From: a virus
IMG/VR virus record: IMGVR_UViG_3300048552_000070
Coordinates: 1-25,322 of that record
Length of the DNA: 25,322 bases
Strand: one strand, 5' to 3'
The notes under the pieces are model-generated. The model searched no databases, was not told the DNA's origin, and saw only the letters and a program-made list of their open reading frames with translations. The stretch's first letter is position 1. Every line of letters starts with the position of its first letter. The translations under genes and the position numbers were made by a program. Below, piece after piece: positions 5,818 through 22,587 of the stretch.

Positions 5818-7827
5818 ATGGCTACTTCTTCCTTTTACTCAAGTACCGGACCGACTGCTGAAGATGTAACTGCACTCCAGGGTTACAAGGACCAGGCAGC
5901 AGACTCGGCAGCCGCTGCGGCAGACTCAGAAACAAATGCAGCAAATTCTCAGTCATTAGCAGCAACAGAAAATACAGAAGCTCAGGCTGCTAAGGTTGCA
6001 GCTGAGGCAGCAAGAGATGCGGCCTTGGTAAGTAAGAATGCGGCCAATGGGTTCCAAGCTACGGCATCTAGTGCGGCCACAACTTCAGCGATAGAGGCAG
6101 GAATCGCTGCCACCAAAGCAAACGAAGCGTCTGCTTCGGAATCTACTGCGACAACAGAAGCTGCCGAAGCAGCAGCATCAGCCGCAGCTGCTCTATTATC
6201 TGAGGACAATACCAGCAACTCAGAAACAGCCTCGGCAGCCAGTGCCGCAGCTGCGCTATCTTCAGAAAACAATGCTTCGGGTTCGGCAACTACAGCTACT
6301 TCCCAGGCAGGCATAGCGACAACAAAAGCTGGCGAAGCGGCCACCTCAGCAACGAATGCGGCCACCTCAGAAACCAATGCGGCTGCCAGTGCGACAGCAG
6401 CATCTACTTCTGCTGGCACATCGACAACTAAGGCTGGAGAATCGTCTACAAGCGCATCTAATGCCGCTACCTCAGAGACAAACGCATCCAACAGTGCTAC
6501 CTCAGCAGCCACTGCACAGACTGCCGCAGAAGCTGCGAGAGACGCTGCACTGGCCGCCTTTGATTCATTTGATGATCGGTATCTCGGGCCTTACTCAAGT
6601 GACCCTACTACCGATAACGATGGTGATGCTCTAGCTGCTGGGATGCTGTACTTCAACACTACCACTGATGACATGAAAGTGTACGAAGGGTCTGTATGGG
6701 TTAATGCTTATGGAAACCTTAGCGATGCTTTAGCAAAAGCAAATAACCTGTCTGACCTACCTAACGCAGCTACCGCAAGAACGAACCTAGGTTTAGGCAC
6801 AGCAGCAACTACAGCTGCGAGTGACTACGCTACAGCTGCACAAGGGACTAAAGTAGATGGCATAGAAGCAAACGCTGACATTACTGATTCAACCAATGTA
6901 GGTGCTGCCCTTACAGGATTCACTACAGGTACAGATGCTGAAAGTTCCGACCTAGTTCCCTACTACGATGTGTCAGCTGGCACTTGGGAAAAAGGCACTA
7001 TTACTGATGTCGCTTTGCAAGGTCCAGCAGGTGCTGACGGAGCAACTGGTGCAGACGGAGCAGATGGAGCAACAGGTCAGCAAGGCCCAACGGGACCTAC
7101 TGGCCCCGCAGGTGCTGACGGTAATGATGGAGCCACTGGCTCAACAGGGCCGCAGGGTGCAACTGGACCACAAGGTCCTGCAGGACCTACTGGTGCTACC
7201 GGATCGACAGGTGCTACTGGATCTACAGGTGCAACTGGCCCTCAAGGCCCAGCTGGTACAAACCCAACAGGGGCGCATATAAACAGTTATAGCAACGACA
7301 TGACTTGTCACGCTGGGTACGCAGATAACTGGTTCAGACCCACTGGCTCGTCTGGGCTGTATTTCCAGTCTTATGGCGGTGGTTGGCATATGACCGACAC
7401 CACTTGGATTCGTGCCTATAATTCAAAGCCTGTTTATGTTGCGAATCAGATTGCGGCTTCAGGAAACGTCACCGCTTATTACTCAGATGAACGCCTTAAA
7501 ACAAAGACAGGTGACATTGAGAATGCTCTTGAAAAAGTACAGAGCCTCTCAGGGTTCACTTATGTTGAAAATGATTTAGCCAGAGAGTTGGGATACGTGA
7601 ATGAAAAACAGCAGGTTGGTGTATCTGCCCAACAAGTACAGGCTGTTGTCCCAGAAGCTGTATCATTAGCACCAGTTGATTTTGAAACAGATGAACATTC
7701 AGGTGAAGTCACTTCTAAGTCGGGAGAAAACTATCTGACGGTTGATTACTCCAGAATAGTCCCTCTATTGATAGAAGCGATTAAAGAACTTAAAACAGAG
7801 GTTGAAGAACTGAAAGGAGGTGCGTAA
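5818..7827 (+). CDS. Tail fibre with collagen-like repeats and C-terminal S74 chaperone (669 aa)
   Basis: A trimeric host-recognition fibre. Residues 1-20 are a short N-terminal anchor. About 20-240 is a long Ala/Ser/Thr/Glu repeat, probably a coiled shaft ([22 protein letters not shown]). About 245-330 contains a small domain and a fibre repeat ([20 protein letters not shown]). About 402-480 is collagen-like, with Gly at every third position ([13 protein letters not shown]). The C-terminus from about 550 is an intramolecular chaperone of the S74 peptidase type. It starts YYSDERLKT, with Ser556-Asp557 as the expected self-cleavage site, then [15 protein letters not shown] and [19 protein letters not shown]. 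The chaperone helps trimer folding and is then released. ATG 5818 has CCTGGAG upstream. The end overlaps the next gene as TAATG. Confidence 0.9.
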
Positions 7828-9152: not shown

Positions 9153-10181
9153 ATGACAATACAATACAGTGGTCAAATCAGTATCAATGATATTGGCGAT
9201 GAATATGAAGTAGCAACGGCCAATCGTTCCCTGACGAACCTTTCTACAGGTATCGGACTGTCAGCTCCCCACGGTATAAAAGAGTTCTATGGCCGCAGCG
9301 CAGCGGTGTCTGTCTCTGGTGCAACTTTGACAGGAGAAGGGCAAAGCATGACTTCAGATACAGCTCCTTACGATCACTGGATTGTCACTACGAATCCCAG
9401 CGACAAACAAGCAGTGATTCAGATGGTTTACGACCCCAGTAGTGCCCCAAATTCCGACCACCGCATAACAATACAGCGGGGCAGTACCTACAATGCCATG
9501 GTCGCCAGTAATACTGCTTACATGGTTCACAGCTCCAACAATGGCGGCAACCCGTACACCATATCGATACAAGTTTTAAATGGTGACTATGTGCGAGTGG
9601 TGATTGGAAATTCTGATATTGGCTCTACGCACACTGGATCGCTGGAGTGGAAGAACCGCTCAGACGGTAGTGTAACACTGGTAAGTGATACCTTCAGTCA
9701 ATATCGATACACACCCTCAGGCGGTGGCGGTGGCAATTTTTATGGGTGCTTCCCAGCAGGCATGATGGTCACCATGGCTGACTTATCAGAAAAAGCCATA
9801 GAGACTATATCGGAAGGCGATATGGTTTTAGGCTCTGGTATGCAGTCAGCGGAAGTGCTGGATGTTTGGACAATGCCGCAAGAGTCCAGATTGATTTTCA
9901 ACATCAACGGTAAGCTCAGGATGACCAAAGATCACCCGATCAAAATCATTGGCCCCACATCATCAACGTGGGCCGCAATGGACCCAGAAGCTGCCAACGA
10001 AATTCACCCCGAACTAAACATACAGCAGTTGGAGATTGGGCAGACATTGGTCGGACCTGATGGTTACAGGGAAACCGTAGAGACAATTGAAACTCAAGTC
10101 GAAGATAGCCAGGTGTACAACTTGAACGTGTCTGGCGATGACACCTACTTCGTGCAAGGTTTACTTGTACACAACAAATAG
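9153..10181 (+). CDS. Virion-like protein with C-terminal Hint (intein/BIL-type) domain (342 aa)
   Basis: Residues 1-50 form a short N-terminal module (SGQISINDIGDEYEVA, IKEFYGRSA) like that of the protein at 7827. About 55-190 is a beta-rich domain, then a Gly-rich linker (GGGGG). Cys199 opens a Hint fold. It begins CFPAGMMVTMADLSEKAIET, has a block B T258-K-D-H261 (T..H) in MTKDHPIKI, and ends VYNLNVSGDDTYFVQGLLVH followed by Asn341-Lys342. These are the N-terminal nucleophile, the T..H oxyanion pair and the terminal His-Asn of inteins and bacterial intein-like domains. No C-extein follows apart from one Lys. The domain could therefore cleave itself off, or attach the N-terminal part to a nucleophile, rather than splice. 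AGGTAA precedes ATG 9153. Confidence 0.82.
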   Translation: MTIQYSGQISINDIGDEYEVATANRSLTNLSTGIGLSAPHGIKEFYGRSAAVSVSGATLTGEGQSMTSDTAPYDHWIVTTNPSDKQAVIQMVYDPSSAPNSDHRITIQRGSTYNAMVASNTAYMVHSSNNGGNPYTISIQVLNGDYVRVVIGNSDIGSTHTGSLEWKNRSDGSVTLVSDTFSQYRYTPSGGGGGNFYGCFPAGMMVTMADLSEKAIETISEGDMVLGSGMQSAEVLDVWTMPQESRLIFNINGKLRMTKDHPIKIIGPTSSTWAAMDPEAANEIHPELNIQQLEIGQTLVGPDGYRETVETIETQVEDSQVYNLNVSGDDTYFVQGLLVHNK

Positions 10182-12066: not shown

Positions 12067-12157
12067 ATCCGATGACTCTAACCAATCGATTATGAGTCGA
12101 CTGCTCTAACCAACTGAGCTATGGGCCCTTAGAGGCCGCGAGTTTACGTCATCGGAT
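12067..12157. repeat. Perfect 10-bp inverted repeat flanking the tRNA-like segment
   Basis: ATCCGATGAC at 12067-12076 and GTCATCGGAT at 12148-12157 are exact reverse complements, 71 bases apart. The left arm starts at the predicted +1 of the early promoter. The arms enclose the tRNA-Met remnant. They could be recombinase arm-type sites, a repressor operator pair, or a stem in the 5' leader of the early mRNA. Confidence 0.7.
12080..12128 (-). other. tRNA-Met(CAT) 5' half; probable phage attachment site (attP)
   Basis: Read on the minus strand from 12128 the sequence is a classical tRNA 5' half. It has an acceptor arm GGGCCCA, TA, a D arm GCTC-AGTTGGTTA-GAGC, and a five-pair anticodon stem GTCGA/TCGAT around the loop CTCATAA (anticodon CAT, 12092-12094). 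A start of a variable loop (TGGTT) follows. The T arm and the 3' acceptor strand are absent, so it cannot be a functional tRNA. Partial tRNA genes beside a tyrosine integrase (here 12807) are typical attP cores. It is unusual that the 5' and not the 3' part is carried. Confidence 0.75.
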
Positions 12158-12806: not shown

Positions 12807-13643
12807 ATGTATACATTAAAAGCATTCGCAGATGAACACGGCCACCGTATGTGGCACGACCGTCACCTAATGAACAGCCTTCGCATGATCAAAAAGGTGT
12901 CAACATTCCGTGACTTTGCTACTAGGCCAATCACTGACTACAAGCCTACCGACATCGAGGCACTGATGGATAGCCTTCAAGACGAGGGCCTAAAGGATGG
13001 GACCATCAATCGGTACCTGTCTGCCATATCGTCGGTATTCAAAGAAGCTGTACGCAAAGAGGTAGTAACCCACGCCCCCAGTGTTCGCTGGAAGAAAGAA
13101 AGCAAGGGTCGCCCACGTTACTACACGGCCAAAGAGGTCAAGGACATCATCGATTTCCTAAAGACATCACGGGACCCCTGGATGGCTGACTTTGTCGTTA
13201 TTGCTGTTAATACAGGGATGCGCCTGGGTGAAATCTTAGGCATCAACAATCCCGAATCTAAGACGGTTGGCAGGGTTTCTAACTGCGGTTCTTTCGTGAC
13301 ACTGTTTGACACTAAGAACGGTGACGAACGCCTGGTACCGCTTAACAAGGACGCTCAGTGGTCTTTAGAGAACCTTAAGGGGGTGCCTAGTGCCTACTAC
13401 AGCCACACTAGATTCTACCGTACCTGGTGGGAAGCAAAAGACGAGTTAGCCAGGCACGACGATAACTTTGTATTCCATGTTTTACGCCACACATGCGCTA
13501 CTAGGTTGGCCATGGAGTTTAACGTCGAGACCCTGACTATTGGCAAAATCTTGGGACATCGGTCTACCCAAACTACACAGAAGTACGTGCATGTGCAGCC
13601 TGACAGCATCAAAAAAGTTATGCAAAAACTGGAAAACTACTAG
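12807..13643 (+). CDS. int: Tyrosine integrase (278 aa)
   Basis: A tyrosine recombinase for site-specific integration. The catalytic residues are in place: Arg139 (NTGMRLGEILG), His224-X-X-Arg227 (HVLRHTCATRL), His251 (LGHRS) and the nucleophile Tyr260 (TQKYVHV). An N-terminal SAM-like core-binding domain covers about residues 20-100 (TINRYLSAISSVFKEAV). ATG 12807 is chosen because GAGGGA lies about 6 bases upstream; the in-frame ATG at 12774 would overlap the previous gene and has no ribosome site. At 278 aa it is short and lacks a large arm-binding domain. The neighbouring tRNA-Met half is the likely attP. No excisionase is recognisable nearby, though the small genes around it are candidates. 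Confidence 0.9.
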   Translation: MYTLKAFADEHGHRMWHDRHLMNSLRMIKKVSTFRDFATRPITDYKPTDIEALMDSLQDEGLKDGTINRYLSAISSVFKEAVRKEVVTHAPSVRWKKESKGRPRYYTAKEVKDIIDFLKTSRDPWMADFVVIAVNTGMRLGEILGINNPESKTVGRVSNCGSFVTLFDTKNGDERLVPLNKDAQWSLENLKGVPSAYYSHTRFYRTWWEAKDELARHDDNFVFHVLRHTCATRLAMEFNVETLTIGKILGHRSTQTTQKYVHVQPDSIKKVMQKLENY

Positions 13644-18191: not shown

Positions 18192-19799
18192 ATGATAGCT
18201 ACAGAACCGCATAATGATTCTGCATTCATACGCCATGTCAGCTGTGAGCATTGCGGATCAAAAGACAATGCCGCCCTGTACGACGATGGCCACACTTACT
18301 GTTTCGGGTGCCAGACTCTTACCCAGGGCGACGAGAGTGCCGAGGTAATCCAGCAGCCAGAAGAGCGAATAGAAAAGAAGCTGCTGCAAGGTTACTTCAG
18401 TAATCTAAAGAAGCGCGGAATCTCGGAAGCAACCTGTCGTAAATTTGGATATGAGATTGGTGAGCATCGCGGAGAACCCGTTCAGATTGCCAACTACAGA
18501 AATGACCATGGCCAGATAGTTGCTCAGAAGATACGAGACGCAAACAAAAACTTCACTATCCTGGGTGCCGCAAAAGAGATGGGCCTATTCGGTCAGCACC
18601 TGTGGATTACTGGTCGCAAGCTGGTTGTCTGCGAGGGTGAAATAGACTGCCTAAGTGTTAGCCAAGTGCAGCGCAACAAGTACCCAGTAGTGTCTCTACC
18701 CAATGGGGCACAGTCAGGCAAAAAGGCACTAATGAATGCCTGGGATTGGCTCGGTGGATTCGATGAAATTATCCTTATGTTTGACCAGGATGAATCAGGA
18801 CAAAAGGCCGCATTAGAGTGCGCTGAGGCCCTGCCAGTAGGTAAGGTCAAGATTGCCAAGCTAGGCCATAAGGATGCAAATGAGGCCCTTCAGAAGGGTG
18901 CTGAGAACGACATTATCGATGCTATCTGGAGAGCCAAAGACTGGCGACCCGACGGCATTGTTAGCAGCTCAGAATTGCGTGATGTCATCGCAGAAACCGA
19001 AGAAGAAAGCCTGGTCAGCTACCCGTACCCAAAGCTCAATGACATCACCAAAGGTATACGACCGTCGACCCTGGTAACCATTTGTGCCGGAAGTGGTGTC
19101 GGTAAGTCTACCCTGGTATCTGAGATTGCCTACCACCTGCACTGCCATGGTCACAAGGTCGGTATGTTAATGCTTGAGGAAGAAAACAAAAGGACCATTC
19201 GAGGTTTACTTGGTCTCCACCTCAACAAGAACATCGTCCAAGACTATGCCTGCGCTACCAAAGAAGAAGTGTTAGATGCCCATTCCGAGTTGTTCTGTGA
19301 ACAAGACATTCAACTGTTCAGTCACTTTGGTAGTACCAGCCTGGAAATCATCTGTAACCGAATTCAGTACATGGTCAAGGCCATGGGCTGCACCCACGTA
19401 ATCTTGGACCACATATCTATTGTTGTCTCTGGTTTGACTGCGGGTGTTACCGATGAACGTCGTTTGATCGACCACTGCATGACGGTCCTCCGGCAGCTGG
19501 TGCAGGAGCTTGGGATCACTTTGTTCCTGGTGTCGCATTTAACTAGGCCACAAGGTGTTGGCCATGAGGCAGGGGGCAGGGTTGCATTGTCGCAACTTAG
19601 AGGCTCTCACTCATTGGCTCAACTCTCAGACCAGTGCATTGGTCTCCAGGTAAACCCCGATGACCCTAGCGATGATACCCGTGACCTGGTTGTTTTGAAG
19701 AACAGGTTCACAGGACAGGTCGGACATGCTGGAAGGCTGAAGTACATCCGAGAGACCAGTCGCCTGGTTGATCACACATATTCTGAACCCCCATTTTAG
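18192..19799 (+). CDS. Bifunctional primase-helicase (T7 gp4-like, 535 aa)
   Basis: Replicative helicase with an N-terminal primase. A zinc finger is formed by Cys18, Cys21, Cys37 and Cys40 (SCEHCGS and YCFGCQ). The TOPRIM core includes VVCEGEIDCLSVSQ and MFDQDESGQKA. The helicase (RecA/DnaB type) follows, with Walker A GSGVGKSTLVSEIAYHL (Lys305), the E-rich MLMLEEENKRT, Walker B VILDHISIVVSG and VSHLTRP. The end is VVLKNRFTGQVGHAG and Arg-rich. The length is close to T7 gp4 (566). GAGAGGGAAAC precedes ATG 18192. The DpdA-like gene follows 10 bases later. Confidence 0.95.
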   Translation: MIATEPHNDSAFIRHVSCEHCGSKDNAALYDDGHTYCFGCQTLTQGDESAEVIQQPEERIEKKLLQGYFSNLKKRGISEATCRKFGYEIGEHRGEPVQIANYRNDHGQIVAQKIRDANKNFTILGAAKEMGLFGQHLWITGRKLVVCEGEIDCLSVSQVQRNKYPVVSLPNGAQSGKKALMNAWDWLGGFDEIILMFDQDESGQKAALECAEALPVGKVKIAKLGHKDANEALQKGAENDIIDAIWRAKDWRPDGIVSSSELRDVIAETEEESLVSYPYPKLNDITKGIRPSTLVTICAGSGVGKSTLVSEIAYHLHCHGHKVGMLMLEEENKRTIRGLLGLHLNKNIVQDYACATKEEVLDAHSELFCEQDIQLFSHFGSTSLEIICNRIQYMVKAMGCTHVILDHISIVVSGLTAGVTDERRLIDHCMTVLRQLVQELGITLFLVSHLTRPQGVGHEAGGRVALSQLRGSHSLAQLSDQCIGLQVNPDDPSDDTRDLVVLKNRFTGQVGHAGRLKYIRETSRLVDHTYSEPPF

Positions 19800-19809
19800 G
19801 AGTCATGTT

Positions 19810-20406
19810 ATGAAAATAATGCTCGACTGTTCGCCTAAGAAAATACATGCATATCGTGAGAGATACGGGGTGGACCTATGGCAGCTAAGAACGCCTTTGA
19901 CCAGGTACTCTTTGTCTGGATTGCCATACGGGTTAGACAACGGGTGTTTCAAACGCTTCGACCAAAAGACTTGGGAAAGGCTGCTTAATGAAGCTGAAGA
20001 TAGTGTACCGAAGTTTGTGTGTCTGCCAGACATTGTTGGGGATGCCGTTAGGACACTCGACCTCTTTGATGTCTTTGAATCTAAAACTAATGGGCTGCCC
20101 AGGGCACTTGTACTTCAGGATGGAATCGGCAACCACAGAATCCCTTGGGACAAGATTGCTGCTGTTTTTGTCGGTGGAAGCGACGCATTTAAGACGAGCC
20201 AAGAGGCCATGAATGTATGCCGAACAGCCCAGATGCTAGGCAAATGGATACACGTCGGAAGAGTCAACACGGCATCAAGGGTTGCCTATTGGAAAGGCAT
20301 TGCTGATTCATTAGACGGCAGCGGTATTAGCCGGTTTGACCACATGCTCGAAGACGTTATTGCCGCCCTGGAAGACTCAAGCGTCCAACAAGAAATTAAT
20401 CTGTAA
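19810..20406 (+). CDS. DpdA/TGT-like protein, candidate DNA base transglycosylase (198 aa)
   Basis: Probably a TIM-barrel enzyme of the tRNA-guanine transglycosylase superfamily, of the short phage type related to DpdA, which exchanges guanine in DNA for a 7-deazaguanine. Key pieces: PYGLDNGCF (Asp43), KFVCLPDIVGDA (Asp74, Asp78), ALVLQDGIGN (Asp104), AVFVGGSDAFK (Gly122-Gly123, Asp125), KWIHVGRVNTASR (Arg151) and SLDGSGISRF (Asp169). The start ATG 19810 has AGGAG 7 bases upstream; an upstream in-frame ATG lies in the helicase gene. No zinc motif is seen. No 7-deazaguanine synthesis genes are in the window, so preQ0 would come from the host or from genes elsewhere. Family by motif; activity is inference. 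Confidence 0.68.
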   Translation: MKIMLDCSPKKIHAYRERYGVDLWQLRTPLTRYSLSGLPYGLDNGCFKRFDQKTWERLLNEAEDSVPKFVCLPDIVGDAVRTLDLFDVFESKTNGLPRALVLQDGIGNHRIPWDKIAAVFVGGSDAFKTSQEAMNVCRTAQMLGKWIHVGRVNTASRVAYWKGIADSLDGSGISRFDHMLEDVIAALEDSSVQQEINL

Positions 20407-20497: not shown

Positions 20498-20803
20498 ATG
20501 AGCAAGTACGAAAAGCAATTTATTGAATTCCACAAAGCCAATCCCCACGTCTATGAACTGTTCAAGAGATACACCAAAGCAGCGATGGCTACCGGCAGAA
20601 AACATTACTCTGCCGCAGCAATCTTTGAACGCATCCGGTGGCACACCGACATCGAGACTAATGAGGAACTGGGCTTCAAACTTAATAACAACGTCACAGC
20701 TTATTACTCCAGAATGTATTCGGCCAACTACCCGCACCACAAAGATTTCTTCCGCACTCGTTCTCTCGTATCTGAGAAACCGGTCCAGCTGGAGGTGTTT
20801 TGA
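20498..20803 (+). CDS. Conserved phage protein (101 aa), function unknown
   Basis: AAAGGAAGC precedes ATG 20498. The sequence resembles a small family common in phages and prophages: FIEFHKANPHVYELFKRYTK, then ERIRWHTDIETN, then FKLNNNVTAYYSRMYSANYP, then FFRTRSL. The Trp, Arg and paired Tyr residues look conserved. The function is not known; the fold may be a small helical DNA-binding domain. The stop codon overlaps the DNA polymerase start (TGATG). Confidence 0.78.
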   Translation: MSKYEKQFIEFHKANPHVYELFKRYTKAAMATGRKHYSAAAIFERIRWHTDIETNEELGFKLNNNVTAYYSRMYSANYPHHKDFFRTRSLVSEKPVQLEVF

Positions 20804-22587
20804 TGAGCCTGATATTTGACCTGGAGACTGACGGTCTACTCAATCAGCTTACAAAGATTCACTGCATTGCAATATTCGACACTAAGCAAACTGATCGTCG
20901 TGTCAATGCAAACAAGATATACCACGGTGACGAACAGATCAGAGAGGCTCTTGAGTTACTGGAGAATGCTGACGAGATCATAGGCCACAACGTCATCAAC
21001 TTTGATGTACCTGCAATCCAGAAAGTTGTACCTGGTTGGAAGCCTAAAGGCAAAGTGACGGACACCATTGTTCTCTCCAGGTTAATCCATGCCGACCTGA
21101 TGAATGAGGATGCAACCTCAGTGTCACTGCCCGAAGGTTTCCAAAAGAGACTGTGGGGCAGCCACTCGTTAAAAGCCTGGGGCCTCAGAATGGGAACCAT
21201 GAAGGGCGACTATGACGGTGGATGGGAAACCTGTAACCAGGACATGCTCGACTACTGTCAGCAGGATGTCACTGTCACCTACAAGCTATATAAGAAGCTC
21301 CTGGTCGACAGCGACCCCTTCAGCCAGCAGTGCATAGACTTGGAACATGAGTTGGCACATATCTGTAACGAGATAGGTAACAACGGCTGGACCTTTGATG
21401 TCGATGCTGCCAATGCACTGTATGCCGAACTGGCGAAGAAGCGCATCAACCTAGAGAAGGACCTGGCGGTACTCTTTGAACCCTGGGAAGTTGTTACTAC
21501 CTTTATACCCAAGCGCGACAACAAGACCCTCGGTTACAAAAAGGGTGAGCCATACGACAAGGTAAAGGTCGTCGAGTTTAATCCCAACTCTCGCAAGCAT
21601 ATCCATCGGTGCCTGGTAGAAAAGTACGGATGGAAGCCCAGGGAATTTACCCCCAGCGGTGATGCCAAGATTGACGAGAATGTACTCAACGCATTGCCCT
21701 ACCCAGAGGCCAAGAAGCTGGCATTGTTTTTCTTGGTACAGAAGAGAATCGCCATGTTGGCTGAGGGTAACCAGGGTTGGCTAAAGGTATGCGACAGCGA
21801 TGGTCGTATCCGGCATTCCATTGTTAGCGGTGGGACTGTATCTGGCCGCGCCTGTCATCGGTCTCCAAACCTTGGGCAGGTGCCGTCGACGAGGGCAGCC
21901 TATGGCAAACAGTGCCGTGATCTATTCACTGTGCCCAGGGGCTGGGTCCTACTCGGTAGCGACCTCAGTGGTCTTGAGTTACGAGTGTTAGCACACTTCC
22001 TGCAAGACGGTGGAGAGTACGCCAAGCAAATACTAGAGGGCGACATTCACACCTATAACCAGAAGGCTGCGGGACTAAAGACCAGGGCAGAGGCCAAGAC
22101 ATTTATCTACGCGACGATGTATGGCGGTGGAGATGGGCTCATCGGTTCCCTGGTCGGTGGAACTGCAAAAGACGGTAGAAAACTCAAGCGAGACTTCGAG
22201 CATGCAATCCCTGCATTCAAGACTTTAAAGAGCGAACTGAAGAGAGCCTACGATGGCCGAGGTTACCTTAAGGGTCTCGACGGTAGGAAACTATTTGTGC
22301 GCTCTGAGCATCGATGCCTGTCTCAGCTGCTCCAGTCTGCTGGTGCAATTCTATGTAAGAAATGGGTTGCCCTGGTCCACAACGAAATCAAAAAACAAAA
22401 CCTAGACGCAGAGATCCTTGGATGGATTCACGACGAAGTCCAGATCGCCTGCCGCAATGAAGAGGTAGCAAAGCATGTCGGTAACATCACTGGAAGAATG
22501 GCGAAAGAAGCAGGAACTCATTTCCAAATCAAAATCCCAATCGAAAGCGAATATGACGTGGGACGTACTTGGAGTGACACCCACTGA
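20803..22587 (+). CDS. Family A DNA polymerase with 3'-5' exonuclease (T7 gp5-like, 594 aa)
   Basis: Replicative polymerase. The proofreading exonuclease has Exo I IFDLETDGLL, Exo II GHNVINFDVPAI and Exo III DYCQQDVTVTYKLYKKL. The polymerase has motif A with Asp387 (LGSDLSGLELRVLAH), motif B RAEAKTFIYATMYGGGD with Tyr436 (like T7 Tyr526), and motif C with Asp544 (GWIHDEVQIAC). The 594 aa compare with 704 in T7. Much of the difference lies in the thumb between FEPWEVVTTF and VEFNPNSRKHI, where T7 carries its thioredoxin-binding loop. ATG 20803 overlaps the previous stop, with GGAGG upstream; a TTG one codon earlier is less likely. The next gene overlaps the 3' end by 113 bases. Confidence 0.95.
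   Translation: MSLIFDLETDGLLNQLTKIHCIAIFDTKQTDRRVNANKIYHGDEQIREALELLENADEIIGHNVINFDVPAIQKVVPGWKPKGKVTDTIVLSRLIHADLMNEDATSVSLPEGFQKRLWGSHSLKAWGLRMGTMKGDYDGGWETCNQDMLDYCQQDVTVTYKLYKKLLVDSDPFSQQCIDLEHELAHICNEIGNNGWTFDVDAANALYAELAKKRINLEKDLAVLFEPWEVVTTFIPKRDNKTLGYKKGEPYDKVKVVEFNPNSRKHIHRCLVEKYGWKPREFTPSGDAKIDENVLNALPYPEAKKLALFFLVQKRIAMLAEGNQGWLKVCDSDGRIRHSIVSGGTVSGRACHRSPNLGQVPSTRAAYGKQCRDLFTVPRGWVLLGSDLSGLELRVLAHFLQDGGEYAKQILEGDIHTYNQKAAGLKTRAEAKTFIYATMYGGGDGLIGSLVGGTAKDGRKLKRDFEHAIPAFKTLKSELKRAYDGRGYLKGLDGRKLFVRSEHRCLSQLLQSAGAILCKKWVALVHNEIKKQNLDAEILGWIHDEVQIACRNEEVAKHVGNITGRMAKEAGTHFQIKIPIESEYDVGRTWSDTH

Follow-up and report, generated by a model that had tools for sequence, protein, structure and literature searches.

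The gene at positions 19,810 to 20,406 (plus strand) of the window, which is the whole of a 25,322-base (25.3-kb) virus fragment and of its record, probably specifies a member of the DpdA/TGT superfamily, a minimal DNA guanine transglycosylase of about 200 aa, which would take its base from the host or from genes beyond the 25-kb fragment. This interpretation is based directly on the presence of a real gene, its predicted fold, its superfamily, a conserved active site and a family-wide genomic link to 7-deazaguanine supply, and from these we infer that the substrate would be DNA, the base preQ0 and the source the host, with possibly some protection against restriction. Both the superfamily and this type of modification were known before, and the protein is a putative compact variant of DpdA and not a new kind of system; no description of the compact variant, of the size of the family or of its pairing with synthesis or import genes was found in the literature searched. 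Cui et al. 2023, outside the scope of that search, reportedly define further DpdA subfamilies (DpdA3 and DpdA4), and the compact family may already have a name.

The open reading frame begins with ATG, encodes 198 aa plus a stop, and has an AGGAG ribosome-binding site 7 nt 5′ of the start. Comparison with the corresponding gene of locus L007, which is 83% identical, gave 37, 12 and 116 nucleotide differences at codon positions 1, 2 and 3, respectively. Therefore, this is a real gene under purifying selection, and that selection is strong. Directly 5′ is a primase-helicase gene (18,192 to 19,799, plus strand; PHROG_239, 4.6e-179), and on the 3′ side is the gene of a T7-type DNA polymerase (20,803 to 22,587, plus strand; PHROG_17, 2.6e-139). 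The sequence-only reading had placed the gene between these two, and it is indeed flanked by both, but it does not immediately adjoin the polymerase gene because a 101-aa ORF without known function (20,498 to 20,803, plus strand; PHROG_13625), which is kept in sister phages, intervenes. The same gene order was found in loci L005, L006 and L007 as far as the contigs reach, and the upstream half of it in L025; these contigs were found through the transglycosylase gene itself, so that the shared order is weak evidence of retention.

As a single query, the 198-aa protein had no match in Pfam, NCBIfam, PADLOC or the PDB, and when the Pfam, NCBIfam, PADLOC and PHROG families were searched, the sole match was PHROG_15826 (5.1e-29), the function of which is listed as unknown. 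The AF2 model (pLDDT 89.6, pTM 0.86) confidently predicts an eight-stranded TIM barrel in which the conserved motifs terminate strands 3 to 8. A Foldseek comparison with the PDB returned TGT (2nqz) as the second match; other TIM barrels (pyruvate kinase, PdxJ and aldolases) scored alike, and pyruvate kinase led a second alignment. Therefore, the PDB fold search alone decides nothing. Among the best 21 matches in a viral structure library, every informatively named one was a queuine tRNA-ribosyltransferase, and the remaining matches were uncharacterised or unnamed, one of them being from phiST.

The relationship was evaluated further with profiles. A 22-row family profile gave chance matches only against the PDB. 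Comparison by hhalign gave P values of 2.9e-5 with DpdA1, 5.1e-5 with the 7-11 type, 8.1e-4 with the CP220 type and 0.023 with cellular TGT, whereas the controls QueC, QueD, QueE and FolE gave 0.07 to 0.64 and reversed profiles 0.35 to 0.8. The kinship to DpdA and TGT proposed from the sequence alone was thus borne out by profile search, with the catalytic residues in register, and these comparisons support the placement of the protein in the DpdA/TGT superfamily. When a 61-row profile (A4) was applied to 10 phage records, of which eight belong to phages of the 7-deazaguanine literature, with Sonali and R29Z as positive controls, beyond the short genes it gave weak matches only: the canonical DpdA gp87 of Sonali (3.6e-4), CPT_0056 of CP220 (0.006) and gp032 of Salmonella phage 7-11 (0.012), which is annotated as a queuine tRNA-ribosyltransferase. 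The compact-family profile had no match in CAjan, 9g or HVTV-1, nor in the Vibrio phage nt-1, the DpdA2 of which may be a more distant relation. The PF01702 model of cellular TGT found nothing in the 198-aa protein or in these phages, and the CxCxxC zinc motif is absent from the 198-aa sequence. The idea that a second short enzyme accounts for the two modified motifs of CAjan was dropped, as the family profile finds no member in that phage; deletion of the CAjan dpdA gene removes all modification (PMC6884629).

All five motifs on which the sequence-only reading relied are present in the protein, namely GLDNG (residues 41 to 45), LPDIVGD (72 to 78), VFVGGSD (119 to 125), HVGRVN (148 to 153) and LDGSG (168 to 172). 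In a 141-sequence alignment, residues D43, P73, D74, Q103, F120, G122, G123, K128, H148, G150, R151, R157, D169 and G170 are about 97 to 99% kept, and N44, D104 and N153 are also nearly invariant; the near-invariant residues fall in these five motifs and in a QDG motif. Asp43 of GLDNG (19,936 to 19,938, plus strand; 132 of 134 rows) is at the end of barrel strand 3 and aligns in hhalign with Asp63 of phage DpdA (LDSGAF), and, judged by the order of the motifs, it corresponds to the general acid/base Asp of TGT. Asp74 of LPDIVGD (20,029 to 20,031, plus strand; end of strand 4; 135 of 136 rows) aligns with Asp105 of phage DpdA (LDGIGD) and is the probable base-recognition Asp. Strand 5 ends in Gln103-Asp104-Gly105 (20,116 to 20,124, plus strand), which is aligned to VQGG in TGT. 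Gln103, found in 134 of 137 rows, is located where canonical phage DpdA has a conserved His (numbered 196 in the literature and probably the one in the FHFG motif), whereas TGT itself has Gln; therefore, the compact protein was not filed as DpdA1. Strand 6 ends in Gly122-Gly123 of VFVGGSD (20,173 to 20,178, plus strand), which is aligned to GGL in TGT, and at the end of strand 8 Asp169 of LDGSG (20,314 to 20,316, plus strand; 135 of 136 rows) is aligned to the Asp that acts as the nucleophile in TGT (FDCVLPTR). The register with TGT in hhalign pairs VLQDG with IVQGG, FVGG with AIGG, HVGRVN with LMGVGSP and LDGSG with FDCV. The alignments support an intact active site, with a TGT-type set of catalytic residues predicted on successive barrel strands.

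The compact protein is about 100 aa shorter than phage DpdA1, which is found with preQ0 genes and has a length of 296 to 316 aa in the four phages used for comparison, namely Enterobacteria phage 9g, CAjan, SHIN8 and Sonali. The D-x-G, D-x-x-G-D and GG motifs of the two are in register, but the compact protein has DNG for DSGAF, PD for LD and Gln for the conserved His. With bacterial TGT (PF01702), it shares the TIM barrel and the Q-G, GG, G-V-G and D motifs, which follow one another from strand to strand in an identical order, but it is half as long, has no Pfam match and no CxCxxC zinc site, and its substrate is presumably DNA. The actinophage proteins Phegasus gp54, Aoka gp40 and Sonali gp81, to which annotators gave the name "DpdA-like tRNA-guanine transglycosylase", are direct members of the compact family, with 28 to 31% identity to the window protein and the same invariant residues; these are from phages that are not T7-like, several with an adjoining PF02592 transporter gene, whereas the window gene is in a T7-like replication block. 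Salmonella 7-11 gp032 and CP220 CPT_0056 gave weak but specific profile matches and differ in their length (246 to 258 aa), in the strand-5 motif of 7-11 (VWHSEG) and, in both, in the strand-6 motifs. CPT_0056 of the Campylobacter phage CP220 (L173:1176-1952) is a hypothetical protein with LDNS, VPDALGD and VVQG motifs in a phage that has queC, and it is probably the transglycosylase of that phage.

The compact gene was found by tblastn in 22 to 24 phage records, including Vibrio phage R29Z, the Seuratviruses SHIN8 and phiG7, two Synechococcus phages, two Erythrobacter phages, and phages of Mycobacterium, Arthrobacter and Rhodococcus, some of them annotated as "DpdA-like tRNA-guanine transglycosylase". 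As far as the inspected records tell, none of these named carriers is T7-like. One carrier, Synechococcus phage Ssp-JY42, showed neither queC nor queD. A two-pattern scan of IMG/VR gave at least 532 confirmed relatives in viral contigs, and the gene was also found on 38 bacterial or archaeal contigs. Four phages (SHIN8, phiG7, R29Z and Sonali) have the compact gene and a full DpdA, and therefore the two enzymes may divide the work or differ in their substrates. In genomes of three Nonomuraea species (G037, G038 and G040), the short gene is present and both TGT and QueC are absent, and so not every member of the family has an obvious source of the base. In SHIN8 (L003:8001-8593) and phiG7 (L032:4926-5518), the gene is interrupted at an identical position, which leaves two overlapping frames (-1), each of them well conserved, as with an inherited break or a programmed frameshift.

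The genes beside the family members were counted in 135 loci with locally built HMMs, which were used because a genome-wide family search had missed a real queD (L013). It was found that queC, queD or queE adjoins the short gene in 37 of the 135 loci, and many of these 37 are close kin; each of the three genes was seen, on either side. The distance was less than 200 nt for 37 of 52 que-gene matches, which as open frames mostly overlap or touch the short gene. When ten que examples were checked against Pfam, nine were confirmed as QueC, PTPS (QueD) or radical-SAM (QueE-type) proteins, and one QueE-like protein had no match. Clustering at 70% identity left 34 clusters, and in 7 of them a less sensitive search found a que gene within 3 kb. 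QueC is rare in phages overall (328 of 50,697 phage records). In 16 further loci, including actinobacterial phages and genomes, the adjoining gene encodes a PF02592 transporter (for example, L009:2770-3234, L010:5829-6296, L033:4399-4929, L047:8480-9031 and L136:8503-9081). PF02592/COG1738 is QPTR (YhhQ), a known importer of preQ0/preQ1 that serves as a salvage transporter in hosts (PMC11130926). Phage ReqiPine5 likewise has a PF02592 gene. A que gene and this transporter were found together in none of the 135 loci, and the short gene is paired with one or the other in 53.

Both arrangements are found among close relatives of the window gene (60 to 74% identity), with the transporter in L009 and L010 (73 to 74% identity to the window protein), queD in L013, L077, L079 and L080, and queE or queE plus queC in L082, L085 and L086. 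On an 85-row tree, the three states (que, transporter and none) need 16 changes, and therefore the pairing arose or was lost many times. A 2019 survey found YhhQ homologues in some phages with no correlation with any group (Hutinet et al. 2019; PMC6884629), whereas a link to the importer is seen here with part of the compact family. The repeated adjacency to queC, queD, queE or a preQ0-type transporter points to a family that uses 7-deazaguanines, whether made or imported, and supports its dependence on their supply. In several loci (L186:5424-6467, L081:5300-6202, L085:4531-5499, L087:632-1510 and L021:5991-6806), a gene resembling PAPS reductase was also noted at a distance of no more than about 2.5 kb from the compact gene, and in L085 it comes after queE and queC.

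Within the 25.3-kb window, we found no gene for QueC, QueD, QueE, FolE, a second DpdA or a preQ0 transporter, in agreement with the earlier statement that no preQ0 synthesis gene is visible. The window appears to start inside a large terminase gene (read by eye) and is a fragment, and so the absence of supply genes applies to these 25 kb and not necessarily to the whole phage. The nearest relatives of the window gene in the tree are those of L007, L008 and L009, of which L009 has the transporter, L008 has no supply gene and L007 has none of its own, and four members of the 24-row clade around it (97% SH-aLRT) have que genes.

The suggestion that the base is taken from the host pool gained indirect support from the contig of locus L007 (L035), which contains a sister prophage collinear with the window. 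The prophage boundary (L035:17058-19015) consists of an integrase gene, tRNA-Lys(TTT) and then queC at the contig end, and this phage type appears to integrate at tRNA genes. Because the tRNA-Lys gene lies between the integrase gene and queC, the latter most probably belongs to host DNA that flanks the attachment site, and queC as a phage gene in the sister contig (G001) was rejected. The host of the collinear sister phage can therefore probably make preQ0, and host-made preQ0 is a plausible supply for the window phage. The window contains a tyrosine integrase gene (12,807 to 13,643, plus strand) and, 5′ of it, a tRNA-like 5′ half up to the CAT anticodon region (12,075 to 12,135, minus strand), which is a probable attP core; therefore, the window phage too is probably temperate. 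Two other features of the window were noted by eye: a tail-region ORF (9153 to 10,181) with a C-terminal part that resembles the Hint/intein type and ends in LVHNK, and a tail-fibre-like ORF (5818 to 7827) with collagen-like GPTGPAG repeats and a peptidase/chaperone-like C-terminal end.

The chemistry of TGT is a double displacement and, given this and the register of the residues, a double displacement at guanine in DNA is the most likely reaction of the compact enzyme, which would consist of one TIM barrel only, lacking a zinc site and any additional C-terminal domain. Asp169 would be the nucleophile that attacks C1′ of deoxyguanosine and releases guanine, the incoming 7-deazaguanine (preQ0 or a close derivative) would be held by Gln103, Asp74 and the Gly122-Gly123 loop, and Asp43 would act as the acid/base, the base then being joined to the DNA. 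Expression from the replication gene block would direct this activity to newly copied phage DNA. The relatives would obtain the base by means of phage queC, queD or queE or a phage preQ0 importer of the QPTR/VUT type, and the window phage from the queuosine pathway of the host or from genes outside the 25-kb fragment. DNA is preferred over tRNA as the substrate because of the kinship to DpdA and the location in the replication block, and preQ0 is preferred as the base because of the neighbour genes in relatives.

Protection against restriction is the weakest claim of this interpretation. In three phages with other DpdA types than the compact family, the lone dpdA gene has yielded little modified base: about 0.02% of G as dADG in Salmonella 7-11, where dpdA is the only pathway gene, and none in Orion (PMC6884629), and about 0.13% of G as dADG in MED16, the DNA of which was cut by most enzymes tested (PMC8306585). 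These values favour a milder form of the main reading, in which a small host pool of free preQ0 would allow trace modification of the DNA here, with little effect on restriction. We consider this unlikely, though worth keeping in mind. Against it, the distribution of differences over the codon positions indicates lasting selection for function; the unchanged location of the gene in the other contigs of this type of phage argues in the same direction, weakly, as the contigs were found via the gene.

It is distinctly improbable that the enzyme acts on tRNA or another RNA, so that host tRNA would contain more queuosine or preQ0 during infection. Within the superfamily, TGT is the enzyme that works on tRNA, the supply genes that adjoin the short gene would equally serve tRNA modification, and such a role has been proposed for phages with preQ0 genes but no DpdA (PMC6884629). 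However, queuosine-competent hosts already have a TGT, the protein has neither the zinc motif of cellular TGT nor its similarity to PF01702, its profile is closer to phage DpdA than to TGT, and the gene sits in a DNA replication block. Very unlikely, finally, is a loss of base exchange that would leave a guanine-releasing glycosylase or an enzyme with another substrate, aimed, for instance, at the DNA of the host or at a competing phage: the members in the Nonomuraea genomes and in phages with a complete DpdA, as well as the replacement of the canonical DpdA His by Gln, are in its favour, but TGT itself has Gln at that place, the full TGT-type residue set is nearly invariant, and 53 of 135 loci pair the gene with 7-deazaguanine supply or import genes.

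Taken together with the reading of the window gene as a DNA guanine transglycosylase, these comparisons lead us to propose, tentatively and at a little under even confidence, that the compact family would be a separate and widespread class of such enzymes, among the smallest known, using whatever supply is at hand (phage-made, imported by phage QPTR or drawn from the host pool), and that in this T7-like temperate phage it would form a one-gene DNA modification system. A function is thereby proposed for a large phage family listed as unknown, PHROG_15826, with more than 500 relatives in viral contigs, and a minimal enzyme is offered for the study and use of base exchange in DNA. The pairing with synthesis genes or an importer suggests how DpdA phages without synthesis genes may get their base, a question open since 2019, and the suggested answer extends to phages of actinobacteria that are unable to make it. 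If the proposal is true, the one-gene modification system of a T7-like phage would be easily tested.
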